Shown here: positions 16,883 through 29,900 of the stretch, one piece after another | How positions within the stretch are numbered: the stretch's first letter is position 1 | How the letters are laid out: the number at the start of each line of letters is the position of its first letter | Source: Sphingobacterium thalpophilum | Lineage (GTDB): Bacteria; Bacteroidota; Bacteroidia; B-17B0; Aurantibacillaceae | Length of the DNA: 49,269 bases | Assembly: GCA_943325195.2 (NCBI GenBank) | Contig: CALPON020000003.1 | Span: 1-49,269, forward strand | Direction: 5' to 3' | Translations under genes and position numbers: made by a program | Notes under the pieces: generated by a model | The model's database searches: none | Told to the model about the DNA's origin: nothing | The model's input: the letters and a program-made list of their open reading frames with translations, nothing else

Positions 16883-19800
16883 TTACTTCTGCACAACTAT
16901 TTTTTCATGGATGAGCAATTCACCTTTCTTCCCTGAAATAAAATAGATACCAGTTGCGAGATCACTCACCTGCACCTGATGCGCATTACCTTCGTTGAGG
17001 TCAATGACGCGAACCACTTGACCTAACTCACTGATGAGAACTAGCTGCAAATCACTGATCGCTTTCATAGTAAAGTTACCGGTATTTGGATTCGGATAAA
17101 TACTTAGTCCTGTGCCCGCCAATTTATTAAGCTCGTCAATACCGAAGCAAGTAGAAGTTCTCACTTGAACTGTCTTCGTGTTGGTACAGCCGTTTTGATC
17201 AGTTCCGGTTAAAGTATAAATGGTATTGCTGTTCGGATTTACCGGAATTATAGATCCGGACAGGCCCGTATTCAGGGTGTAAGTGACTGCGCCTCCGCAA
17301 AGAATATCTGTAAATTCGCCACGGCAAATCTGTGTCCTACTTGGCACAGCGGTGATGGTTGGATTGCTGTAGATTGTCACAAAGACAGTATTGGAGCTAA
17401 TACAGTTGACCTGATTGGATGTTGATGTGGCAGAAACAAGATAGAACGTTGCTGTGCTTGGGGAAACAGAAATTTGTGAGAAAGGCTGGTTACCATTCCA
17501 CGTATAACTATTCGCACCGCTGGCCATCAGAGTTATCGTACCACCGAGACAACTGGAAGTCGGACTGTTAACTGCAAAGCTTGGTATAAAGACGGAAACG
17601 GGATAATTGCCTGCAGCCGTACATTGATTTGCAGCAGTACCTATTACTGAATAGATGGTGCTCGTGAGTGGATTGACAACGGCTACTGAACTGGTCACCC
17701 CTCCTGCATTGGCGTCCCAAGTATAGGTGCAGACACCGCCCTGTGATGTAACCGTTAAGCCACTTGCTCCGCCAATGCAGACCAACGGTTTGGTTGTGCC
17801 AATCTGAAGGGTAGGGGTGGTTCTCACTACTACTACTTGCTGGCCATTAGTGGTGCAGTTAAAATTATTAATACCCGTTACCTGATAATTTACAGACGCG
17901 GTAGGCGTTTCCGTGATTGTTACATTTGTGCTGTTGGAATTCACAACCCCTGCTGTCCAGCTATAACCAATGGCGCCGCTGACGGTCAGACTTACTGCAT
18001 CGCCCTGGCAGATATTTGTACTGCTTGGGCTAATATTCAAAGTCGGGTTAGGATTTGTAGTCAATAGCACTGTTGTGGTATTGGCGCAGGTTCCATCAGA
18101 GGCTGCAACTGTATAAAGTGTTGTAATACTCGGTGAAACAACCGGACTAGCGCCCGTCACCGTAAACACGGGTGGTCCTGCCGTCGTCCACGTATAGCTT
18201 TGCGCACCAGCGGCTTGTAAGGTTGCTGGACGTGAAGCACAAATAAGTGTCGGCGATGCAATGGCAAAAATAGTTGGTAGTTGATTTACAAATAATTGTA
18301 TGGTCTGCGTATTGACACAATTGGCGTTTGACTTGGTCAAGGTATAGGTGGTATTTGCATTAGGGGAAACAGTAATCACACTGCTAGTCTGTATTCCCGT
18401 TGAACTAATCCAACTATAGGTAGTTGCTCCACTCGAGGACAAGGTGGCTGAACTGCCAATGCAAATGAGGGGAGGGCTTGCCACTGGGGGATTCACAGGT
18501 ACCGTGACCACCGTAACACCCGTCACAGCGCTATTGGTACAGGATTGCACACTTGTTCCAACAATAGTATAAACTGCTGTTGCCTGAGGGAAGAAATTGG
18601 AGGCATAAGGAACACCTGAATTCACCACGCTGTATGTCACCGCATTTCCAATACCACTGATGCTGACAGGAACGTTATTGCAAATAGAAGGCTGACTTGC
18701 TACCGCTGTGACATTCGGCAGCGGGTGCACAGAAACCGAGGTGGCAACGGATGCACTACCGCAGGCATTCTGTCCTGCTACAACATATGTTGCTGAATTA
18801 ACGGGACCGAACACAGCGCCATTTATCACACCATTCGTCCATGTATAGGATGCAGCTCCGCTCGCTGTCAAAGCAACAGTTGAGTTTGGGCAAATACCGC
18901 CTGTCGCACTGGCCGTGTTAACGACTGTCAAAACTGGCGCTGCCGGCACTACCACAATGTTTACAACTGCCTGCGAATTACAACCAATATTGTTTGTGCC
19001 GATAACTGTATAATTGGTATTTGAAGTTGGTGCTGTGGTAAAAGAAACCACATTGCTTCCGCCTGGACTCCAAGTGTAAGAAACTAAATTACTCGCGGTA
19101 ATGGTTGCCGTTGTTCCCACGCAAATAGTATTAGATGGCAAAGTACTGACCTGAGCAAGTGAGCCATTAAAACCATAGGTTAAAATCACCAGACCATTTC
19201 CGGTTTGAAAACTTGCTGAAGAGGAGGCTGCTGTTAATCCCGTTATGTAGGATGATCCTCCTCCTCCTCCGCCGCCGCCAACACCACTGCCGCTTGAAGC
19301 AGAGCCGCCGCCACCGCCACCATAATAACCGCCACCGCCGCCACCGCCGGAAACGTCAAGACTACCTGCGGCACCCGCGCCGCCGACCGCCAAAGCGCCG
19401 GCAGTTCCATTTGGTCCCGCATTATCTCCTAGTCCTCCTGCACCTCCTGCAGCTGCGCCACCGCCACCGCCACCATTGGTGTTTAATCCAGGGTAACCAA
19501 ATCCACAATTGCCTGCAGCGACCCCAACAACTCCGTTTGTTCCGCCGCCACTGCCTCCAGAGCCGCCGCAGCCACATGGCTGACAACTTCCATTGCAATA
19601 ATCACGTCCCGAACCGCCCCCGCCGCCAGCTACAATCACCCGGTTGGAAACGGCTGTGCCTCCCACGCGAACGTCAGATGCACCCCCGCCGCCGCCGGCA
19701 GGACCACCTAGACAACTCCCACCAGATGTAGAGACGCCTCCGGCGCCTCCACCATTAAAGCCGCCGCTGCCATTAATATTTCCAGCACCTCCGACATTTA

Positions 19801-20089
19801 TATAGAGAACCTGGCCTGCTACAACAGATAAAACACCAATAGCACGTCCACCTAATCCGCCAACACTGTTCGTTGGAGCACGGTCGTTAGATTGCGCTCC
19901 TTGTGCGCCGCGAGCATCAATCGTTATACTGGCTACACAACTTGGTACCGTAAAGGTTTGTTGACCACCTGTAAAAGAAAATGTCTGCACAACCGGCGCC
20001 TGCGCACTCGAATGATAAGTAGAAAATAACAACAACATCGCTGCTGTCAATCTTTTTATTCCGATACTAAGAAGGTATTTTATCTTCAT
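16883..20089 (-). CDS. Giant T9SS type A surface protein with ALK/LTK-like glycine-rich head and nine Ig-like repeats
   Basis: The 1068-residue product has a signal peptide (M-K-I-K-Y-L-L-S..., ending S-S-A-Q). The ATG at 20089 is preferred over one 30 bases upstream, because it starts the signal peptide and matches the M-K-I-K start of its paralogue. Residues ~35-310 form a glycine-rich domain with G-G-G-G-G-A-S-D-V-R, V-I-V-A-G-G-G-G-G and G-G-G-G-G-S-S-Y-I blocks and paired cysteines, as in the ALK/LTK glycine-rich family. Nine Ig-like repeats of ~75 residues follow, each with a S/T-Y-T/S-W strand. The end is a T9SS type A domain (I-Y-P-N-P-N-T-G-N-F, L-A-T-G-I-Y-F-I). It is probably a cell-surface adhesin. 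The stalk and tail are paralogous to the protein at 20224. Confidence 0.88.
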   Translation of the reverse strand: MKIKYLLSIGIKRLTAAMLLLFSTYHSSAQAPVVQTFSFTGGQQTFTVPSCVASITIDARGAQGAQSNDRAPTNSVGGLGGRAIGVLSVVAGQVLYINVGGAGNINGSGGFNGGGAGGVSTSGGSCLGGPAGGGGGASDVRVGGTAVSNRVIVAGGGGGSGRDYCNGSCQPCGCGGSGGSGGGTNGVVGVAAGNCGFGYPGLNTNGGGGGGAAAGGAGGLGDNAGPNGTAGALAVGGAGAAGSLDVSGGGGGGGYYGGGGGGSASSGSGVGGGGGGGGSSYITGLTAASSSASFQTGNGLVILTYGFNGSLAQVSTLPSNTICVGTTATITASNLVSYTWSPGGSNVVSFTTAPTSNTNYTVIGTNNIGCNSQAVVNIVVVPAAPVLTVVNTASATGGICPNSTVALTASGAASYTWTNGVINGAVFGPVNSATYVVAGQNACGSASVATSVSVHPLPNVTAVASQPSICNNVPVSISGIGNAVTYSVVNSGVPYASNFFPQATAVYTIVGTSVQSCTNSAVTGVTVVTVPVNPPVASPPLICIGSSATLSSSGATTYSWISSTGIQTSSVITVSPNANTTYTLTKSNANCVNTQTIQLFVNQLPTIFAIASPTLICASRPATLQAAGAQSYTWTTAGPPVFTVTGASPVVSPSITTLYTVAASDGTCANTTTVLLTTNPNPTLNISPSSTNICQGDAVSLTVSGAIGYSWTAGVVNSNSTNVTITETPTASVNYQVTGINNFNCTTNGQQVVVVRTTPTLQIGTTKPLVCIGGASGLTVTSQGGVCTYTWDANAGGVTSSVAVVNPLTSTIYSVIGTAANQCTAAGNYPVSVFIPSFAVNSPTSSCLGGTITLMASGANSYTWNGNQPFSQISVSPSTATFYLVSATSTSNQVNCISSNTVFVTIYSNPTITAVPSRTQICRGEFTDILCGGAVTYTLNTGLSGSIIPVNPNSNTIYTLTGTDQNGCTNTKTVQVRTSTCFGIDELNKLAGTGLSIYPNPNTGNFTMKAISDLQLVLISELGQVVRVIDLNEGNAHQVQVSDLATGIYFISGKKGELLIHEKIVVQK

Positions 20090-20162
20090 TTTTAAATATT
20101 TAGTTATACTAAAATACAAAAAATGTTTCTAAATCAAATGAATCCTGGAAAAAGGCATTAAA

Positions 20163-20223: not shown

Positions 20224-23200
20224 TTATTTCGTTACCACTATTTTTTCATAGAGGCCATTCGAATCGCTCAGGAAATATAAGCCGGCAGCGAGTTCTCGCA
20301 GGGTAATTTCATACTGATTTGCTTCTGCCAGGCGAATGGTCTGAACAACACGTCCTAACTCATCGAAGAGCTTTAGGTCCACATTTGTTAATCCCCTGAT
20401 GGTAAAAGAGCCTGTATTTGGATTTGGATATACCAGCACGGCTGCCACATTCCGACTATTCTCACCGATACCAAAACAAGTTGAAATCCTTACCAGCACT
20501 GTGGACGAAGAAACACACCCGTTCAAGTCTGTTCCCGTTAATGTATACGTCGTATTTACATTTGGATTCACGGGAATGACGGAGCCCGAAAGACCGGTGT
20601 TCAGGGTATAGCTGAGTGCTCCGCCAGCATTGATATTCGTGAATTCACCGCGGCAAATCTGCGTCCTGCTTGGCACGGCAGTAATTGTAGGATTATTATA
20701 GATGGTCACAAACACCGTATTCGTACTAACACAATTTACATTAGACGAGTTGGATGTTGCTGCGACAATATAGAGAGTAGGACCACTTGGTGAAACAGAA
20801 ATTTGCGAGAAAGGCTGGTTTCCGTTCCAAGTGTATGTATTCGCACCAGAGGCAATCAGGTTAATGGTGCCGCCAAGACAACTCGAGGTCGGACTGTTGA
20901 CCGCAAAGCTAGGCAAGAAGACACTGATTGGGATACTAGCTGCTGCTGTGCAATTGTTTGCCGCCATTCCCAATACTGTGTAGATGGTGGTGGTAAGTGG
21001 GTTAACAGTTGCAGTTGCAGAGGTAGCACTGCCTGCGTTGGCGGACCAGGTGTAAGTAGAAGCACCACCCTGCGCTGTAACAGTCAAGCCGCTTGCGGCA
21101 CCGGTGCAGACAAGTGTTTTTGTACTTGCTGCTGTAAGTGTTGGCGTTACTCGCACAACTACCACCATTTGTGCACTGCCCGTGCAGTTAAAGCTGTTGT
21201 TACCACTCACCTGGTATAGCGTAGATAAAATGGGACTTTCGTTAATCGATGCAGAGTTGGTATTGGAAGTGGCACCGGCTGTCCAGCTGTAACCAAGCGC
21301 ACCAGAGGCGCTCAGATTCACAGCATCACCTTGACAAATATTAGAACTGGTAGCTGCAATGGAAATGGTTGGATTTGGATTAGTTGCAAGGAGGACCGTC
21401 GTTGTGTTAGCGCAGGTGCCGTCCGATGCTGCAACCGTATAAAGCGTTGTCACACTCGGAGATACAATCGGACTGCTGCCAGTGACAGAGAAAGAGGGAG
21501 CGCTCCATGTATAAGTTTGCGCTCCACCGACATTCAATGTCGCTGTTGTGCTAGCGCAAATGATAGTCGGCGAACTGATTGCAAATAGGCTTGGCAATTG
21601 ATTAACAAACAGCTGAATCGTTTGAGAATTCACACAGTTTGCATTTGATTTCGTGAGTGTATAAGTTGTATTTCCTGTCGGGGAAACGGTGATGACAGAA
21701 TTGCTTTGCGTGCCAGAGGGCGTGATCCATGTATAAGTGGTTGCGCCGCTTGAACTGAGTGTCGCAGTGCTCCCCACACAAATAAGAGGCGGTGTCGCAA
21801 CAGGGGGATTAAGAGGAGTGGTAACCACGGTGACACCGGTTACCGCACTTGCTGTACAACCCAGAGCACTTGAACCGATAACCGTGTAATTTGCAGTTGC
21901 GGTAGGAAAAAAGTTGGTACCATTGGGCACTCCGTTTGACCAGGCATAACTGACCGCATTTCCTATACCGGTTAAGTTGACAGAATTGGTTGAACACACC
22001 GAGGGCTGACTTGCTACCCCGTTCACTGTCGGTAGCGGGTGAATTGACATGCCAATCGTCGCTGAGGATGTGCCACAAGCATTTGTACCCGACACGGTGT
22101 AACTGCTTTGGGCCCCCACTGGAAATGGGACTCCATTCTGTATACCACCCGTCCACGTATAGCTGGTAGCACCCTGACCACTCAGCGCCACGGTAGAGCC
22201 AGGACAGGCTCCGCCGCCCGGAGCTGTGCTGATCGCAGATACAGTTGGTGTGATATTGACGGTCACTGTAATGGCACTACTGGCGGCACAATTAAAGGCA
22301 TTAGTGGCCAAAACGGCATAGGTGGTGTTGATGCTTGGCGAAACAACAATACTTGCGCTGTTAGAGCCGGTGTTCCATGTATAAGTCGTGTTGCCGGAAG
22401 CAGTGAGAGTTGCCTGTGCACCGCTACAAATAGAGGTTGTTCCAACAACATTAATTGTGGAAGGACTGACAATCGTTGTCTGAGTCAGATTACAGGCTGG
22501 TGCCGGCATCCATCGGTAACACTCATTTGTAGCTGTCCAAGTTGAAGTGGCATTTCTTCCCGTTACGGGATAAGCAATCGTACCTCCCACGTTCAGAATC
22601 CCCATAGTTGTTATATAGGTATTGGTTGGAAGGGGTTTCGAGGTGGTGTGAATTTCAACCCGGTTTGTCGTCTCCGTCAGCTGAATCTGTGAGGTTATCG
22701 GACAGCAGTAGGTACCGCTGTTGTAATGGTAAATTGCGTTAAAAGAGACAATCAGCGTGCGGTTTGGACTGGCACCTATAGTAGTATAAGTGATACTACC
22801 ATTTGCCGGCGGATACAAATCGGTCCAAGCGTAAGCAATTAAATTATTTGGATCGGTGGTGGAATTAGTAGGCATTGATAAGCCACTGCAGCAGCCGTTC
22901 AGACTGTTATTTGAAAAGGTAATAAAACCATTTGAGCTAATGTAAAAGGTATTGTAGCTGTTACAGAAGAAAACAAAATTAAATCCAATTGGTAAACCGG
23001 CACTCACCTGATCATCACCCAGTGTAACAGCAGTTCCTGCAGTGGTGAGCGTGGCATAAGGCGCTGAGCTGAGGGAATAAATACTGCAGCCACTTACATA
23101 ACTAATAGAATGGGTACCAGGACCCGCTATGGCAGGGTTAAAGACGTTACCACTAATCCCAGGTCCACTGAAATTTCCTCCAGGAATACCAGGGGTCAGG

Positions 23201-23328
23201 GTTGAAGAGTTAGAGTTCGTGCAATAGTTTGAACTTAGCCCGCTGATTGTACATTGCGCCACTGCTGTTCCTGCAAATGTGATTGAAAACAAGAGACTCG
23301 ACAGGATCCGGGTAAATTTTATTTTCAT
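20224..23328 (-). CDS. Giant T9SS type A surface protein, paralogue with a different head domain
   Basis: The 1034-residue product has a signal peptide (M-K-I-K-F-T-R-I-L..., ending A-V-A-Q). The head (~25-290) is unrelated to the glycine-rich head of its neighbour. It is Cys-containing and beta-rich, with the pattern I-G-F-N-F-V-F-F-C-N-S-Y-N-T-F-Y-I-S-S-N-G-F, like the nidogen-type extracellular beta-sandwich heads of Bacteroidota cargos. Nine Ig-like repeats follow in the same order as in the neighbour, with long near-identical peptides (for example S-F-A-V-N-S-P-T-S-S-C-L-G-G). The end is a T9SS type A domain (V-Y-P-N-P-N-T-G-S-F, L-A-A-G-L-Y-F-L). It is presumably a surface adhesin whose head sets the binding specificity. 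Confidence 0.88.
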   Translation of the reverse strand: MKIKFTRILSSLLFSITFAGTAVAQCTISGLSSNYCTNSNSSTLTPGIPGGNFSGPGISGNVFNPAIAGPGTHSISYVSGCSIYSLSSAPYATLTTAGTAVTLGDDQVSAGLPIGFNFVFFCNSYNTFYISSNGFITFSNNSLNGCCSGLSMPTNSTTDPNNLIAYAWTDLYPPANGSITYTTIGASPNRTLIVSFNAIYHYNSGTYCCPITSQIQLTETTNRVEIHTTSKPLPTNTYITTMGILNVGGTIAYPVTGRNATSTWTATNECYRWMPAPACNLTQTTIVSPSTINVVGTTSICSGAQATLTASGNTTYTWNTGSNSASIVVSPSINTTYAVLATNAFNCAASSAITVTVNITPTVSAISTAPGGGACPGSTVALSGQGATSYTWTGGIQNGVPFPVGAQSSYTVSGTNACGTSSATIGMSIHPLPTVNGVASQPSVCSTNSVNLTGIGNAVSYAWSNGVPNGTNFFPTATANYTVIGSSALGCTASAVTGVTVVTTPLNPPVATPPLICVGSTATLSSSGATTYTWITPSGTQSNSVITVSPTGNTTYTLTKSNANCVNSQTIQLFVNQLPSLFAISSPTIICASTTATLNVGGAQTYTWSAPSFSVTGSSPIVSPSVTTLYTVAASDGTCANTTTVLLATNPNPTISIAATSSNICQGDAVNLSASGALGYSWTAGATSNTNSASINESPILSTLYQVSGNNSFNCTGSAQMVVVVRVTPTLTAASTKTLVCTGAASGLTVTAQGGASTYTWSANAGSATSATATVNPLTTTIYTVLGMAANNCTAAASIPISVFLPSFAVNSPTSSCLGGTINLIASGANTYTWNGNQPFSQISVSPSGPTLYIVAATSNSSNVNCVSTNTVFVTIYNNPTITAVPSRTQICRGEFTNINAGGALSYTLNTGLSGSVIPVNPNVNTTYTLTGTDLNGCVSSSTVLVRISTCFGIGENSRNVAAVLVYPNPNTGSFTIRGLTNVDLKLFDELGRVVQTIRLAEANQYEITLRELAAGLYFLSDSNGLYEKIVVTK

Positions 23329-23596
23329 TTTTAAGTGTTATTTATCGGTTTGATTAAGTAAATATAGTGAAAAAATAGGCCCGCCGATATGGATAAAGGT
23401 GGTTTTTTTCTTCTGGCCGCTTTTGGCAGTACCTTTCGAAAAATAGGGTGGGTGAACATTGCTATAAAAATTTGGAATCGTTTCGGCATGGGGCTTTCAT
23501 TTCCGGGATACCCAATTTCCCTCATTCAGAAGCACTCTTTGCTAAATCAGATTTTTTTTATTAATTTAATACCTAAGTTTAGCGAAAGTAAATGCC

Positions 23597-24346
23597 ATGC
23601 AAAAATACCGCGCCGTAATAATCGATGATGAAGAAGATAGCCGCAGCAATACGCGGAATATGATTCAGAACTACTGTGAAGAAATTGAAATTGTTGGAGA
23701 AGCGGATAATGGTCCCGAAGGCAAAAAAAGAATACAGGAACTGAAACCTCAGGTTGTCTTTCTTGATATTAATATGCCGGGTATGAATGGTTTTCAGATG
23801 CTGGAAGGAATCTATCAACGCGATTTTTGCGTGATCTTCCTCACCGCTTATTCTGAGCATGGCATAACTGCAGTAAAGGCAGGGGCAACGGACTATCTGC
23901 TAAAACCTCTGATGCTCAGCGAACTCCAGGGTGCGGTTAAAAAGGTGGTCCAACATTACGAGACAAAGCCTTCAGGGTCAGTAAACAGCAAGCCTGAGGA
24001 AAATAAAAATCTTGTCCTGATTAACCACAGCAAAGGGTTCACCCTAGTCGATTTTAAAGACATTGTCTGGTTGGAAGCCAGCGATAATTACACCAACCTA
24101 TTTTTGAACGGCCAGAAGAAAATTGTTGCTAGTAAGACTTTAAAGGAGTTTGAAGCTATTTTGCCGGAAACTGATTTTTTCCGAATCCACCGCTCTGCGC
24201 TTATCAATATCCATTTTGTGAAGGAATACAGCAACCATGAAGGGGGCGAAGTTATTCTTAGCGATGGAACGCATGTTCAGGTGAGTAAAGCTAGGACCCA
24301 GGAGTTTTCCGAATTCATCAAATCCCGCTCTGTTTCGCCAAAGTAA
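23597..24346 (+). CDS. LytTR family response regulator
   Basis: The 249-residue product has a receiver domain (1-~120) with the acidic pair D10-D11, phospho-acceptor D57 (V-V-F-L-D-I-N-M-P-G), Thr in F-L-T-A-Y and Lys in L-L-K-P-L. A LytTR DNA-binding domain (~137-240) follows, with D-I-V-W-L-E-A-S-D-N-Y-T and F-F-R-I-H-R-S-A-L-I-N. It should bind direct repeats at target promoters after phosphorylation by the histidine kinase encoded next. The 268-bp upstream gap is shared with the divergent giant adhesin gene. A near-match to the -7 element (TAAGTTTA, 23574-23581) lies just before the start. Regulation of the neighbouring surface genes is an inference. Confidence 0.93.
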   Translation: MQKYRAVIIDDEEDSRSNTRNMIQNYCEEIEIVGEADNGPEGKKRIQELKPQVVFLDINMPGMNGFQMLEGIYQRDFCVIFLTAYSEHGITAVKAGATDYLLKPLMLSELQGAVKKVVQHYETKPSGSVNSKPEENKNLVLINHSKGFTLVDFKDIVWLEASDNYTNLFLNGQKKIVASKTLKEFEAILPETDFFRIHRSALINIHFVKEYSNHEGGEVILSDGTHVQVSKARTQEFSEFIKSRSVSPK

Positions 24347-24371
24347 TTCCCCAACCTAGTCCTTCTTTTTG

Positions 24372-24379
24372 TACTTTTG
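24372..24379 (+). promoter_or_regulatory. Possible -7 element before the histidine kinase gene
   Basis: TACTTTTG fully matches TAnnTTTG, 58 bp upstream of the kinase start and 26 bp after the regulator stop. There is no TTG at the expected distance. It could give the kinase its own transcript in addition to read-through. Confidence 0.35.
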
Positions 24380-24436
24380 ACCTTTGGTGGCCAAACACAC
24401 TAAGAAGCTCCTTGTCTGAATTCCTTTAGAACATAC

Positions 24437-27328
24437 TTGTTTTTTTTATTATCGGTCCTGTTTGTCCGGGTATCTGCGCAAACGCCTTCATTTAACTTTC
24501 AGAAGTTAGGGACTGAAGAAGGACTTAATAACGCGAACATTTTCAATATTGAGCAGCATCCCAATGGCCTACTCTATTTTACCACACAAAACGGAATTTA
24601 CAGTTATGATGGTTATTACTTCAGCAAACTGGCAATCGACAGTTTGAGAAGTAATGCGCTTATTACGGCTTCTATCTTCAAAAATAACCAATTACTATTA
24701 TCACTGCGTGATGAAGGAATTGCCAAGCTTGATCTTCATACAAAAGGTTACACTTTTTTACCTCACTTAAGTCTCACTGATAACAACGCCGACAACCTCA
24801 TTGTTACAGATAATTTTGCTTACCTACTGATTTCTCGCATTAAGATTATCATTGTCGATCTGCGCACGGGTAAGGTCACGCAGGATCAACTCAAAAAGCA
24901 AGGGAATCTAGCGTTCTGTCTCTATAAAACCACCGCGGGAAAGATTTTGCTTGGCCGCTCTGATGGTTTATATGATTTGACCAACGGACAGCAGGTAAAA
25001 CTGCCGGTGCTTACAAATGCGCCGGTATATGCGATTACACAGGATAAAGAAGGTAAATTATATCTAGGTTCTGCTGGAAAAATATATGTCATCAACCGTG
25101 GTAAAGTTGAAAAAGAAATAGAGCCAAGCTATAAGGTCAAAACAAATAGTTTTTTACCAGAAGGTCAGGGACGGAGTATCAACAAAATTATATGTGATGC
25201 TTTTGACAGAATCTGGTTCACCAGCTATCCGGAAGAAAGTCTTTTTCTTTTTGCGAACAACACGGTGTATGATGTGTTTCAGGGACTGAATATTCCTCCC
25301 ACCCTGATAAAATGTCTTTTTAAAGATGAAGAGCAAAATATATGGGTAGGAACGAATAATGATGGACTCTATTTTATACAAAATGCTTTTTTTAATTCCA
25401 TCAATTTCGATTACAGTGGAAAAAACCTGAATATCAATCAGGTCTTTCTGAAAGGCCAGTTGCTCGTGGCTGCCACTAATAACGGTTTATTTGGACTGAA
25501 CCTTCAAAATTATCAGGCTAAAATTTTATCCCGACCAGATGAGGTTTTTCAGGAACCAATTTATGGACTCAGTGAAGGAAAAGAAGTCATTTATTATAGT
25601 AAGATCAATGAAATAAATTTATTCCCATCCATTTTTTTTACTTCTGAACGTAGCTACCGTTTCAAACCTATTATTGCGAAACTTTTTTATCCCGCTTCTG
25701 AAAAAGAAAGTATTCTCGCGGATTGGAATCTGAACATTTTACTAGCCAATGGCGACGGAACAAAGGTGCTGGACACCCTTATTTCATTCAGCGACTACCG
25801 CATCAGTGTGAATACCTTACTAAAAAAGGATGACTTACTCTATGTTGGGACCAGTAATGGACTCTTTACTTATGATTTTAAATCCCGTAAAATTCGTAAC
25901 ATAAAGAGTCGCGAATTGAACTTTAATATAAATGATCTTTGCATAGTCGATGGAAAGTTATATGCAGGTCATGAAGGTGGCCTAACCAATGTCACGGAAG
26001 GGAAACTAATCGATCAATTCGGAAGTCTGAGTCTCAATACTGTTCGGAAAATCCGGCAGTACGGTGATCAAATCTGGCTGGGAACGATAGACGGGGTGTT
26101 AGTTTGTGACCGCTCCTTTAACTTGCTGAAGATTCTCAATAAGTCTAACGGTTTATTGTCGAATTCCATTAATGACATATCTTTCAGTGATGGCCGTGTC
26201 GGCATTGCAACTGCAAGGGGTGTATCTATCAGTGATCTAAATAACATTATAAAGTACAATGCACGAATGCGGCCGGTTACGATTGCAGAAGTTTTAAGTA
26301 GCAGGACGGAAATCGAACAAAATGGGAGTGTTTATGAACTGTCGGCCAATCAGGAAAATCTAAGCATTCGTTTTTACAGTCCTTTATTCGCTCGTCCCAA
26401 TAAGCAATACTTCCGTTGGCGGATGGATGAAGAAGACTGGAAGTATTTCGCCAATAACAGTTTCGAGGTCGGTATTAGTGGCGGACGTCATCGTGTGGAA
26501 ATTCAAGCCTCTTCCGATAATATTGCTTGGAGCAACTCTACTTCTTTAAGTTTTAATAAAGTAGAAAAATTAAGTGAAACTAGTTCGGGTTATCTCATTT
26601 TTAGTTTAATAGCCATTACTCTGATTATACTGATTAGTTTTTTCTGGATACGACGAATTAAAGTTAAAAGTAAACGTCGGCTAGCAGAAGAACAACAGGT
26701 TAACCTGCTCAAACACCAGGCTATGAACTCCTTGCTGAGCCCTCATTTTATTTTTAATTCCCTCACCTCTATTCAGAATTACATCAACACCAACAATGGC
26801 TTGCGCGCCAGCGAGTACCTGGCTAAGTTTTCCCGCCTCATCCGCTTGATTATTGAAAAGGCAGCGCAGAGTCATATTTCCTTGCATGATGAACTGGCAA
26901 GACTTACCTATTATCTGGAGCTTGAAAAAGAACGGTTTAAAAATAAATTTGATTATCGCATTCAGCTGGATGAACATCTCAATACGCATGAAATCGATAT
27001 TCCCAATATGATTATTCAACCCTATGTCGAAAATTGTATTATTCATGGCATTTTACCCAAGCAGGCACATGGTGAATTAACGCTGAGTTTTAAATTAAGT
27101 ACTGAAAAAAAACTGCGTATAATAATTGAGGACAATGGCATAGGATTAATTAAGGCGCGCGAGCACGCAAAGTCAGATCACAAATCACTCGGAACAAGTA
27201 CGATTCAGAATATCTTAGATATTAATTCGAAACTGAGTGGAAAGAGACAGAAAGTAACGATGGTAGATAAATCTACCCTTCGGGAAGGGGATCATGGAAC
27301 CATCATTGAAATCGAATTAGAACTGTGA
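24437..27328 (+). CDS. Sensor histidine kinase with propeller and Y_Y_Y periplasmic domains
   Basis: The 963-residue product begins at TTG, the first usable start after an in-frame TGA, and opens with a short signal sequence ending S-A-Q. Residues ~20-610 carry two-component-regulator propeller repeats (G-T-E-E-G-L-N-N, then I-W-V-G-T-N-N-D-G-L and similar). A Y_Y_Y-like beta domain (~615-705) and one membrane helix (~715-737) follow. The cytoplasmic part is a His_kinase domain with L-S-P-H-F-I-F-N-S (H770) and an ATPase N-box M-I-I-Q-P-Y-V-E-N. It should sense an extracellular or periplasmic ligand and phosphorylate the LytTR regulator encoded 90 bp upstream. The next gene overlaps its last four bases, which ties the kinase to a secreted protein. 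Confidence 0.92.
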   Translation: MFFLLSVLFVRVSAQTPSFNFQKLGTEEGLNNANIFNIEQHPNGLLYFTTQNGIYSYDGYYFSKLAIDSLRSNALITASIFKNNQLLLSLRDEGIAKLDLHTKGYTFLPHLSLTDNNADNLIVTDNFAYLLISRIKIIIVDLRTGKVTQDQLKKQGNLAFCLYKTTAGKILLGRSDGLYDLTNGQQVKLPVLTNAPVYAITQDKEGKLYLGSAGKIYVINRGKVEKEIEPSYKVKTNSFLPEGQGRSINKIICDAFDRIWFTSYPEESLFLFANNTVYDVFQGLNIPPTLIKCLFKDEEQNIWVGTNNDGLYFIQNAFFNSINFDYSGKNLNINQVFLKGQLLVAATNNGLFGLNLQNYQAKILSRPDEVFQEPIYGLSEGKEVIYYSKINEINLFPSIFFTSERSYRFKPIIAKLFYPASEKESILADWNLNILLANGDGTKVLDTLISFSDYRISVNTLLKKDDLLYVGTSNGLFTYDFKSRKIRNIKSRELNFNINDLCIVDGKLYAGHEGGLTNVTEGKLIDQFGSLSLNTVRKIRQYGDQIWLGTIDGVLVCDRSFNLLKILNKSNGLLSNSINDISFSDGRVGIATARGVSISDLNNIIKYNARMRPVTIAEVLSSRTEIEQNGSVYELSANQENLSIRFYSPLFARPNKQYFRWRMDEEDWKYFANNSFEVGISGGRHRVEIQASSDNIAWSNSTSLSFNKVEKLSETSSGYLIFSLIAITLIILISFFWIRRIKVKSKRRLAEEQQVNLLKHQAMNSLLSPHFIFNSLTSIQNYINTNNGLRASEYLAKFSRLIRLIIEKAAQSHISLHDELARLTYYLELEKERFKNKFDYRIQLDEHLNTHEIDIPNMIIQPYVENCIIHGILPKQAHGELTLSFKLSTEKKLRIIIEDNGIGLIKAREHAKSDHKSLGTSTIQNILDINSKLSGKRQKVTMVDKSTLREGDHGTIIEIELEL

Positions 27329-28323
27329 CCTCAACGAAGCTATATACCTATCTGATGCTGCTTTTAAGTCATGTTCTGTTTTCGCAGAACAGAGATTTGT
27401 TGCCTGACAGTCTGATTCTCTGCTGGGGTGACAGCAGTGTGCTTGAACTGCGCAATCTGCCGGAAACGAATGTTCTCATTACTTGGACCACGCCTCAAGG
27501 TATTGTCACCAATACGCGTCGCTTGAATGCACAGCGTCAGGGAAAATATTTTGTAACGGTTTCTCTTTCGGGAAATAAAAAGCCTTTGTCAGACAGTTGT
27601 CTATTGAAAATCTCTTACCGCGTGAAGCCTTTGCAGGAAGATACTGTATTTTGTCGTGGGCGCTCTCTAATGCTAGATGCCCGTTACGCGGGACTTCGCT
27701 ATCTATGGAGCACCGGAGAAACCACGCAGCGTATTCAGATTGAAAGTGGGGGACGCTATTGGGTGCGGATACAAAGTGGCGCCTGTGTAACCGTTGATTC
27801 GGTAAAAGTTCGACAATTGCCAGGCTTTGCAGTTTCGGTGCCTACTGAACTTAGTTTCTGCGCCAACGATGAACGGAAACTCATTGTCGCCCGGGGATCG
27901 GCAAATACACGCTATGTTTGGAATACAGGGGCGACTACCAATAGCATTCAGGTGAACCGTGAGGGGACGTATTGGTTGCGAAGTGAAACGGGAATATGCG
28001 GAAAACAGGTCGATTCAGTGAAAGTGCGAATCAAAATGTGTGAATGCGAAATGCTTATTCCTAGCAGTTTTTCACCCAATGAGGATAATAGGAATGACTA
28101 TTTCTACCCGCAAAGTACCTGTGAATACACTTATTTTTTCTTGACAATTAGCGATCGCTGGGGAAACAACGTGCACAGTTCCAGCAATCCGAACGGAAGA
28201 TGGGACGGCCGTTTTAAAGGCAATTTATGTCCTGAAGATATTTATGTTTACCGTATTGAAAGCACCGAGAAGGGAAGCGATAAAAAGCTAGTGCGGACAG
28301 GAAAACTCTCACTGTTTCGCTAA
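27325..28323 (+). CDS. Secreted protein with gliding-motility/T9SS type B C-terminal domain
   Basis: The 332-residue product starts at a GTG that overlaps the kinase stop (GTGA); a later ATG would leave too short a signal peptide. The signal peptide ends near F-S-Q. Residues ~25-235 hold three Ig-like repeats with W-S-T-G-E-T-T and W-N-T-G-A-T-T motifs. The last ~90 residues are a CHU_C/type B sorting domain: I-P-S-S-F-S-P-N-E-D-N-R-N-D-Y, S-D-R-W-G-N-N-V, W-D-G-R-F-K-G and Y-V-Y-R-I. Type B domains, as in SprB, usually need a PorP/SprF-type outer-membrane partner. The next gene encodes an outer-membrane protein that could play this role. Confidence 0.9.
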   Translation: MTSTKLYTYLMLLLSHVLFSQNRDLLPDSLILCWGDSSVLELRNLPETNVLITWTTPQGIVTNTRRLNAQRQGKYFVTVSLSGNKKPLSDSCLLKISYRVKPLQEDTVFCRGRSLMLDARYAGLRYLWSTGETTQRIQIESGGRYWVRIQSGACVTVDSVKVRQLPGFAVSVPTELSFCANDERKLIVARGSANTRYVWNTGATTNSIQVNREGTYWLRSETGICGKQVDSVKVRIKMCECEMLIPSSFSPNEDNRNDYFYPQSTCEYTYFFLTISDRWGNNVHSSSNPNGRWDGRFKGNLCPEDIYVYRIESTEKGSDKKLVRTGKLSLFR

Positions 28324-28383
28324 GCTTTAACGTTTCAGGAATAGGATTTTCGAATTAAGAATTCTTTTTGCGATGAAGACCAT

Positions 28384-28410
28384 TAATTTTGAGGCAATTG
28401 CGTAATTTTG
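28384..28410 (+). promoter_or_regulatory. Two tandem -7-like elements before the outer-membrane protein gene
   Basis: TAATTTTG occurs at 28384-28391 and again at 28403-28410; both fully match TAnnTTTG. The start codon at 28428 follows within 20-40 bp. TTG elements are present nearby but at unusual spacing (13 bp for the first), so the call is tentative. Confidence 0.35.
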
Positions 28411-28427
28411 AAAAAGCCACGTGTCAC

Positions 28428-29900
28428 ATGAGATTCATCAGTTGCCTGATTCTTTTGCTTTATTCTGCTGTTTCAGCAGCGCAGGACCGGGAAGGTATTA
28501 TCCTGAGTAATTATCATCCTGTAACTGGCACTTACTTTAATCCATCTGCGAGTGTTGATTCCAGAGCGTTTATACAAGTCAATCTCGTAGGTGTCAACGC
28601 CGGCGTGTATACCAACCTTCTTTATCTTCAACAATTCAGTGTGATAAAGACGGCGCAGAACCCTGTGATGCCCCAAATCAAGCCTATATCAGGAACTAAA
28701 AGTAAATTTCTGCATTTACAGGCATTGGCTGATGGCCCTTCTTTTTACTGCAGTACAAACAAGTACGGCTTTGGTTTTTTTACGCGTGGCAGAGCAGTTG
28801 CTGATTTCCGTCGCATACCCTATCAGTTTACATCCTTTATTTTTGATGGACAAGAGCCTGCCAAAGAGCCAGAGTTCTCAGTCCGCAATGGCCGAATGTC
28901 TGAAATGAGCTGGCTGGAATACGGACTTAATTTTGGCTACATGGTGAAGCGCCGTCGTTATGATCTTTTTACGGCTGGAATTAACGTCAAATACCTGACG
29001 GGCTTAAATCTGCAGTATCTGAATCTGAAACGACTCGATGGTACATCCAATGATGTTGCAATAAATATTTCGCAGATAGAGGGGCTGTATAAGGCAGTGG
29101 ATTTTGCTTTTGGCAGTGGAAAAGGTCTCGGTACAGACATGGGTTTTACTTATAAGCGCATGCTCAAGGAAATTGATACTTATGTAGCGCACTCGAAACA
29201 ATCTTCTTCTAACTGCAAGATTGTGGACTACAAATTTAAGGTGGGTGTAAGTTTGCGTGACTTGGGATATATTTCATTTAAAAAGGGGACCAATACCGTG
29301 CAGTTAGCGGGCAGTGGAACTATCTCTCAGGATGGCAAAGTAGAGGAACAAATCCGCGCAAAATTTTCTGTGGATGAAGCGAGTCAGGCAAAAACGCGCG
29401 CACTTCTGCCATTTGCACTGGCCCTGCATGGGGATTACAACCTTGGCTATTCATTTTATATTGGTGCTGCCTTGCAAAAGGGCTTGCTTCCTAATGGAAG
29501 TGTTGGCGTTCTGGCCTCTGACTTTGTTGCCATTGCACCACGTTTCGAGACCCGTCACATTGAAGTGGCGATTCCTTTTTCTCTGAAGCGTTTTAACACT
29601 CCTGAACTCGGATTGGCGCTACGTATCCGCTCCTTTGTGATAGGTATGGATAATTTATTGCCAGTGATAGCCAGCAGCAATACCCGTGCAGCAGGCGTTT
29701 ATTTTAATCTGGGATGGACACTGTTTAAGAATCCAAAGTGTGGCGAAGGTGCAGGAAAAATTGACGACTGTAGTAAGGACAAAAAAGGTTCCGTAAAAAT
29801 TAAACGTAAAAATAGTCTGTTAAGTGCATTTCCCCTCAAGGAGAAAAAACAAAAGCGGCCCGTTAAAAAAGGCCGCCGTTTTTTGTTTTTCCAGAAATAA
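28428..29900 (+). CDS. Outer-membrane beta-barrel protein, DUF5723-like
   Basis: The 490-residue product has a signal peptide (M-R-F-I-S-C-L-I-L-L-L-Y..., ending S-A-A-Q); the TTG 39 bases upstream is not needed. The start of the mature part, I-L-S-N-Y-H-P-V-T-G-T-Y-F-N-P-S-A-S-V-D-S-R, resembles DUF5723 and more distantly the N-P-A-Y/N-P-A-S start of PorP/SprF and PorV barrels. Many amphipathic beta-strands follow (V-G-V-N-A-G-V-Y, L-A-L-R-I-R-S-F-V). The last ~45 residues are very basic (K-R-K...K-K-G-R-R) and contain a terminator in the DNA. It lies 104 bp after the type B cargo gene and may help its export or anchoring. The family name is moderately sure. Confidence 0.65.
   Translation: MRFISCLILLLYSAVSAAQDREGIILSNYHPVTGTYFNPSASVDSRAFIQVNLVGVNAGVYTNLLYLQQFSVIKTAQNPVMPQIKPISGTKSKFLHLQALADGPSFYCSTNKYGFGFFTRGRAVADFRRIPYQFTSFIFDGQEPAKEPEFSVRNGRMSEMSWLEYGLNFGYMVKRRRYDLFTAGINVKYLTGLNLQYLNLKRLDGTSNDVAINISQIEGLYKAVDFAFGSGKGLGTDMGFTYKRMLKEIDTYVAHSKQSSSNCKIVDYKFKVGVSLRDLGYISFKKGTNTVQLAGSGTISQDGKVEEQIRAKFSVDEASQAKTRALLPFALALHGDYNLGYSFYIGAALQKGLLPNGSVGVLASDFVAIAPRFETRHIEVAIPFSLKRFNTPELGLALRIRSFVIGMDNLLPVIASSNTRAAGVYFNLGWTLFKNPKCGEGAGKIDDCSKDKKGSVKIKRKNSLLSAFPLKEKKQKRPVKKGRRFLFFQK
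29855..29890 (-). terminator. Bidirectional terminator inside a coding sequence
   Basis: GCGGCC (29855-29860) pairs with GGCCGC (29871-29876) across a ten-base A-rich loop. A T-run follows on the plus side (29879-29890) and another on the minus side (TTTTGTTTTTT). On the minus strand it is the natural terminator of the rho-DUF4199 transcription unit, ~30 bp after its last stop. On the plus strand it lies before the stop codon of the DUF5723-like gene (29898-29900). Confidence 0.75.

Follow-up and report, generated by a model that had tools for sequence, protein, structure and literature searches.

A putative self-regulating LytTR system for a giant type IX surface protein, with a small type B cargo gene tied to its sensor kinase gene

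The window, that is, the whole stretch of 49,269 nucleotides that was analysed, carries four genes in a row on the + strand, preceded by a short repeated site. These features are the following:

23516..23550, + strand: LytTR-like site of two 9-bp direct repeats 12 bp apart, matched by a 35-bp profile, 77 bp before the regulator ATG
23597..24346, + strand: response regulator with a LytTR DNA-binding domain (Response_reg 82 bits, LytTR 76 bits)
24437..27328, + strand: sensor kinase with a Reg_prop propeller ectodomain and a His_kinase domain (Reg_prop 55 bits, PF06580 59 bits)
27325..28323, + strand: small type IX cargo of 332 residues, with a signal peptide, three Ig-like domains and a type B sorting domain
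28057..28320, + strand: type B sorting domain of the small cargo, residues 245-332 (TIGR04131 49.5 bits, CHU_C 52 bits)
28389..29900, + strand: DUF5723 outer membrane protein, here called the barrel (DUF5723 112 bits; likely start ATG 28428)

The order of LytTR regulator, propeller kinase, type B protein and DUF5723 barrel given in the preliminary description was confirmed, both in the common strand and in the domains. The regulator joins a receiver and a LytTR domain in one protein, both far above cut-off. In the kinase, the His_kinase match reaches 59 bits, the HATPase_c score of 16.8 bits stays under its cut-off of 26.4 bits, and the ectodomain is related by sequence to the solved propeller sensors 4a2l, 3ott and 3v9f (best E 3e-18); the start of this gene is probably CTG 24416 or TTG 24437. 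The sorting domain of the small cargo, with its 49.5 bits, lies above the TIGR04131 cut-off of 35 bits. The overlap between cargo start and kinase stop, which had also been described, is present as GTGA at 27325-27328 provided that GTG is the start, and the start codon of this gene turned out to be unusual in the relatives. The draft source genome (2.9 Mb, 217 contigs) has 29 CHU_C and 11 PorP_SprF matches. Upstream of the regulator, on the opposite strand, there are two large adjoining type A sorting-domain proteins (16883-20119 and 20224-23328, both on the - strand), similar in make-up and with Ig_7-like repeats.

Gene order was scored by means of genus-derived profiles in those 71 genomes of the family that have a kinase match, over stretches around the cargo or the kinase; G216 and G193, which have kinase matches as well, stand outside this set. 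Kinase and small cargo adjoin in 68 of the 71 genomes, 67 of them by script and G009 by inspection; there the cargo frame starts over 70 nt within the kinase gene, and the script therefore scored it as absent. The three exceptions are G203, which has the regulator, the kinase and the promoter motif with no cargo downstream (the next gene is on the opposite strand), plus G191 and G192, which have only distantly matching kinases (292 and 235 bits). Regulator and kinase adjoin in 49 genomes, do not adjoin in 10, and are cut by contig ends in 12. Among the 10, G191 and G192 present a weakly matching regulator next door and G226 has the regulator about 2 kb upstream; for G227 and G223 the regulator search covered the fetched stretch. 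In five members of the genus (G036, G023, G015, G014 and G002) the regulator orthologue lies elsewhere, 81-85% identical, and kinase and cargo are still paired. At L265 (G187:C7:112000-122500), kinase and cargo are broken into several frames, by decay or by assembly errors. Among 80 cargo loci listed from GTDB, the three genes were found together in two 'Bacteroidia bacterium' MAGs (JAEUTP01 and JAEUTO01; loci L061 and L062), which are not independent of G007 and G006, and the other 78 loci showed no related kinase beside the cargo.

The survey of gene order that the preliminary description had proposed as a check thus upheld the kinase-cargo part of the arrangement and not the remainder, since the regulator is not adjacent in the 10 genomes mentioned and the barrel adjoins the cargo, immediately downstream and on the same strand, in just 11 of the 71. 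In a kinase tree built by a quick method from 55 rows, eight of the nine barrel rows fell inside one clade of 11 rows; the ninth, that of G024, sits on a long branch whose position is uncertain. The remaining rows of this clade are G018, which keeps regulator, kinase and cargo but lacks an orthologue of the barrel (the best match, in a frame of 815 residues, scores 59 bits); G035, with barrel and cargo on different contigs (L156 and L166); and G022, where the contig ends within the cargo. Because of these adjacency counts and of the near-restriction of the barrel to one clade, we regard the four-gene cluster as a lineage-specific state and the kinase-cargo pair as the conserved unit.

The position of the barrel had suggested that it may be an alternative export partner of the cargo, which would make it the dedicated outer-membrane partner of that protein. 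In the literature, type B cargos use PorP/SprF shuttles (PMC12618676, PMC9143113), and a PorP/SprF barrel gene is commonly, not obligatorily, found downstream of them (PMC12618676), so that an immediate downstream position on the same strand in 11 genomes would agree with such a role. However, the barrel is missing or elsewhere in the other 60 genomes (a few of which end at a contig border), and within its own clade it was lost in G018 and unlinked in G035. Outside the family, four genomes (L157-L160) carry a barrel orthologue with no cargo match within the stretch examined, and the orthologue of G047 (L181) has a cargo-like frame at a distance of about 4 kb. Furthermore, the barrel does not match PorP_SprF (PF11751), DUF5723 being the sole family found at E up to 1. 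Since it is beside the cargo in so few genomes, is missing from the close relative G018 and lacks a PorP_SprF match, the barrel is not an obligate partner; gene order, G018, G035 and the clade restriction rule it out as a rule of the cluster, the claim of an alternative partner was not borne out, and a dedicated partnership appears very improbable. For a comparison with the 14-strand FadL-like barrel expected of a PorP/SprF shuttle, no solved relative was found by sequence and the single-sequence model was unusable (pLDDT 31); no mention of DUF5723 was found in the open-access literature. Longer relatives of DUF5723, with about 800-860 residues per frame, occur widely across the genus (e.g. 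L026 and L028).

No PorP/SprF gene lies directly downstream of the small cargo, the next gene being DUF5723. Seven of the 11 PorP_SprF matches of the source genome sit directly downstream of a CHU_C match, and four are without such a neighbour. In F. johnsoniae, one orphan shuttle is common to three orphan cargos (PMC12618676, PMC9143113); by analogy with what was published for that species (PMC12618676), the four unpaired PorP/SprF proteins could serve an orphan cargo. At L212 (G000:C51:2538-6365), an orphan PorP/SprF gene lies between PorU-like and GldK-like frames, which were named by eye.

A motif of 35 bp upstream of the regulator gene is common to 34 genomes of the genus. The profile was built from these promoters of the regulator itself, and the threshold was set at the 99th percentile of shuffles (6.3 bits). 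The best direct-repeat period of the motif is 21, i.e. 9-bp repeats 12 bp apart (9-12-9), and an inverted-repeat reading scores nearly equal (0.57 vs 0.58 for the direct repeat). Direct repeats of the 9-12-9 form have been described for LytTR sites (PMC6193735). The site at 23516-23550 is the sole match above 8 bits in the 49 kb of the window, and in other genera of the family the motif was above threshold at 16 of 22 regulator promoters. In G033, G008 and G032 (L144, L145 and L149, respectively), the site of the regulator also lies before a divergently oriented gene, whose product has about 725 residues and which is a possible further target in that clade.

A degenerate search for the motif in 40 genomes of the genus gave 35 matches, compared with 8 for the pattern read backwards. 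Regulator promoters accounted for 18 of the 35. Fourteen of the 17 others, those with a locus, were examined with respect to genes on the + strand: four lie inside frames, four precede large exported proteins, at 86-129 bp from the start (G030 twice, G001 and G021), and the rest precede other genes or no listed gene. These large proteins are giant type B cargos, about 1,700 residues long, and the family is represented in 39 of the 40 genomes of the genus (E up to 1e-15). In the source genome, the giant cargo is encoded away from the window, on contig C96 (L309, G000:C96:7047-10572), as a frame of 1,735 residues with a CHU_C match; G030 has two near-identical tandem copies (L278:11157-16307), and its giant protein ends in CHU_C (58 bits) and contains a PKD domain.

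The motif exceeded 6.3 bits at 22 of 23 giant-cargo promoters, the sole one below being that of G184, vs 9 of 403 other genes in the loci of the genus; for three of these nine, the site of the regulator itself lies in the interval that separates them from the regulator gene. The set of 23 leaves out G186, G008, G028 and G014 (two above threshold and two below), as well as other paralogues without a fetched locus. When the four promoters that led to the link are set aside, 18 of 19 are above threshold. The distance to the ATG is -86 to -94 in 18 cases, -76 in G024, -114 in G035, and -127 to -131 in G001 and at the two sites of G030; the site of the source genome scores 14.8 bits at -93. At all giant cargos above threshold, the motif is in reverse orientation. 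Six other secreted-protein genes of the source genome showed no motif site, and a match of 10.1 bits in L212 was dropped, as it lies inside a frame on the other strand.

From this distribution we infer that the 9-12-9 repeat is where the regulator binds, both ahead of its own gene and ahead of the giant-cargo gene. The idea that the sensor controls a surface display module of its own therefore found support in a modified form, with a LytTR-like site before the regulator and another before a giant type B gene located elsewhere. Binding by the regulator is predicted from sequence. Alternatively, the motif, whose distance to the start codon is fairly fixed, as that of a core element would be, might be a promoter element or the site of another factor, and the system might control something else. 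We consider this improbable, because a 9-12-9 repeat of period 21 fits published LytTR sites (PMC6193735), because the motif travels with the regulator gene when this gene is relocated, and because it is rare before other genes and reversed at the giant cargos.

The five genomes of the genus in which the regulator lies elsewhere also bear on the small cargo. In them the motif stays at the regulator gene and no motif was found in the 450 bp before the kinase gene, so the cargo follows the kinase and not the regulon. Conversely, since G203 keeps regulator, kinase and motif with no cargo downstream, the system can exist without the small cargo. Judging from gene order and motif positions, the small cargo is attached to the kinase rather than to the promoter.

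A second peculiarity of the small cargo is its start codon. Each frame was read back to the upstream stop, and the codons available before the signal peptide were recorded. Among 63 cargo frames of the family, ATG was available in 3, GTG in 3, TTG in 25, only CTG in 5, and only ATT, ATC or ATA in 27; this count excludes truncated, broken or divergent frames, such as those of G022, G025, G187, G198 and G024, the last of which has an ATG available. By comparison, the aligned start of the regulator is ATG in every one of 56 family orthologues, the kinase has ATG available in 25 of 55, and in nine other families (the regulator included), read by eye, ATG, GTG or TTG coincides with the aligned start or lies close to it. 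In many cases the cargo frame begins no more than 20 nt from the kinase stop, and the overlap of GTG and stop in the window is one version of this arrangement. As the hydrophobic signal segment is conserved where a standard start is missing, the simplest reading is a start at AUU, AUA, AUC or CUG. Such codons are weak starts, and the translation of the cargo is accordingly predicted to be weak, from a non-AUG start. A fusion of kinase and cargo by frameshifting was rejected as a general answer to the missing start, since G033, G008, G026, G027 and others have a cargo frame that begins downstream of the kinase stop. Bacteria are known to translate overlapping genes by termination-reinitiation, and the survey concerned finds hardly any use of Shine-Dalgarno motifs in Bacteroidetes (PMC6728339). 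That a single gene of an operon retains a non-AUG start throughout a family is unusual and looks selected; no precedent for a pattern of this kind was recognised among the open-access papers listed.

The model of the small cargo, built from 18 sequences, has a mean pLDDT of 85 and a pTM of 0.48, is good within domains, and predicts three groups of Ig-like strands plus the sorting domain. Its best Foldseek matches were to the GhpA surface protein of Aureispira and to strings of Ig domains; such matches indicate the fold class, which is Ig-like, and not the function. With regard to the FimH-like Ig domain of PorA (see below), none of the 50 fold matches listed carries the name FimH. Orthologues above 290 bits are present in 33 of 36 relatives in the genus, with 42-55% identity; of the other three, G005 lacks one, the copy of G024 is divergent and that of G022 runs off a contig end. 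Outside the genus, most of the cargo matches listed cover the residues after about 100, so the first Ig-like domain seems to be the more specific part. It should be noted that conservation alone is ordinary and was rejected as an argument, because two other short type B cargos of the source genome, taken as a control, are kept in 35 and 33 of 40 genus genomes, with identities of 36-48% and 36-59% across the genus. When distances of the cargo were correlated with those of the kinase domains, the sensor part did not do better than the cytoplasmic one.

The domains, the linkage, the start codons and the shared promoter motif, read from the sequences, point to a LytTR system that regulates itself and also governs a giant type IX surface protein, the small Ig-like cargo being a low-level accessory of the kinase. 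We put this reading forward tentatively, at somewhat less than an even chance. Its regulatory part, the control by LytTR of its own gene and of the giant cargo, is supported by the predicted sites; for the small cargo, we infer a role as accessory of the kinase, perhaps reporting secretion status. According to this proposal, the propeller kinase would sense a periplasmic signal and phosphorylate the LytTR regulator, which in turn would bind the direct repeats that precede its own gene and that of the giant cargo. The small cargo would be translated from the kinase message, at a low level because of its weak start codon and in coupling with kinase translation; it would most likely touch the kinase sensor in the periplasm, or else relay from the surface, and in this way the kinase may read whether type IX export keeps up. 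The barrel would be an optional neighbour.

There is a plainer explanation, which we consider nearly as likely: the small cargo may be one more surface protein of the regulator's operon, in which case the linkage serves co-expression and the weak start merely sets the dose. The cargo does lie behind the autoregulatory promoter in most genomes, and the other evident target is likewise a type B cargo. Nevertheless, five genomes of the genus pair kinase and cargo away from regulator and motif, and a surface-display gene would not be expected to keep isoleucine-codon starts. The accessory reading is preferred because the cargo is tied to the kinase, has an unusual start and is Ig-like in build. 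A more specific version, which we regard as unlikely, would make the small cargo a secretion sentinel, that is, a protein present at low level that occupies the propeller of the kinase in the periplasm until type IX export removes it. The kinase would then measure export capacity and set the transcription of the giant type B gene, closing a secretion-coupled feedback loop. The export of FlgM in flagella follows the same logic.

A precedent for a CTD protein acting upstream of a sensor kinase is PorA of Porphyromonas gingivalis, which was placed upstream of the PorXY-SigP pathway (PMC7712824). In that work no direct contact between PorA and PorY was detected, PorA could reach the surface without the type IX machinery, and an action at the surface was proposed (PMC7712824). 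Like PorA, the small cargo is an exported Ig-like protein with a CTD and is linked to a two-component system that would govern type IX genes. It differs in that its CTD is of type B, its gene is fixed to the kinase gene and its evident target is a giant cargo, whereas in PMC7712824 the target is the secretion machinery and PorA is not described as encoded with its kinase. PorA is taken as type A because the only type B cargo reported in P. gingivalis is PGN_1317. With SprB-SprF and the orphan type B cargos (PMC9143113, PMC12618676), the small cargo shares the type B sorting domain and, as in the orphans, the absence of a shuttle gene next door; unlike SprB, its fixed neighbour is a kinase gene and not a shuttle gene.

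Autoregulated LytTR systems likewise have a LytTR regulator and a direct-repeat site before their own operon; those described in PMC6193735 work with a small membrane inhibitor, whereas here a propeller histidine kinase and an exported protein are found. The periplasmic sensor is related by sequence to the Reg_prop kinases of Bacteroides (4a2l, 3ott and 3v9f), some of which are named as hybrid or one-component systems, and in our locus the regulator is a separate LytTR protein. Among the open-access papers listed, which include work on regulators of type IX secretion such as PorXY-SigP (subscription papers lying outside the scope of the search), we recognised neither a LytTR system for type IX cargos nor a cargo gene fixed to a kinase gene. 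If the proposed reading is right, the locus would offer a case in which to study how a kinase lying behind the outer membrane is informed of conditions at the cell surface.
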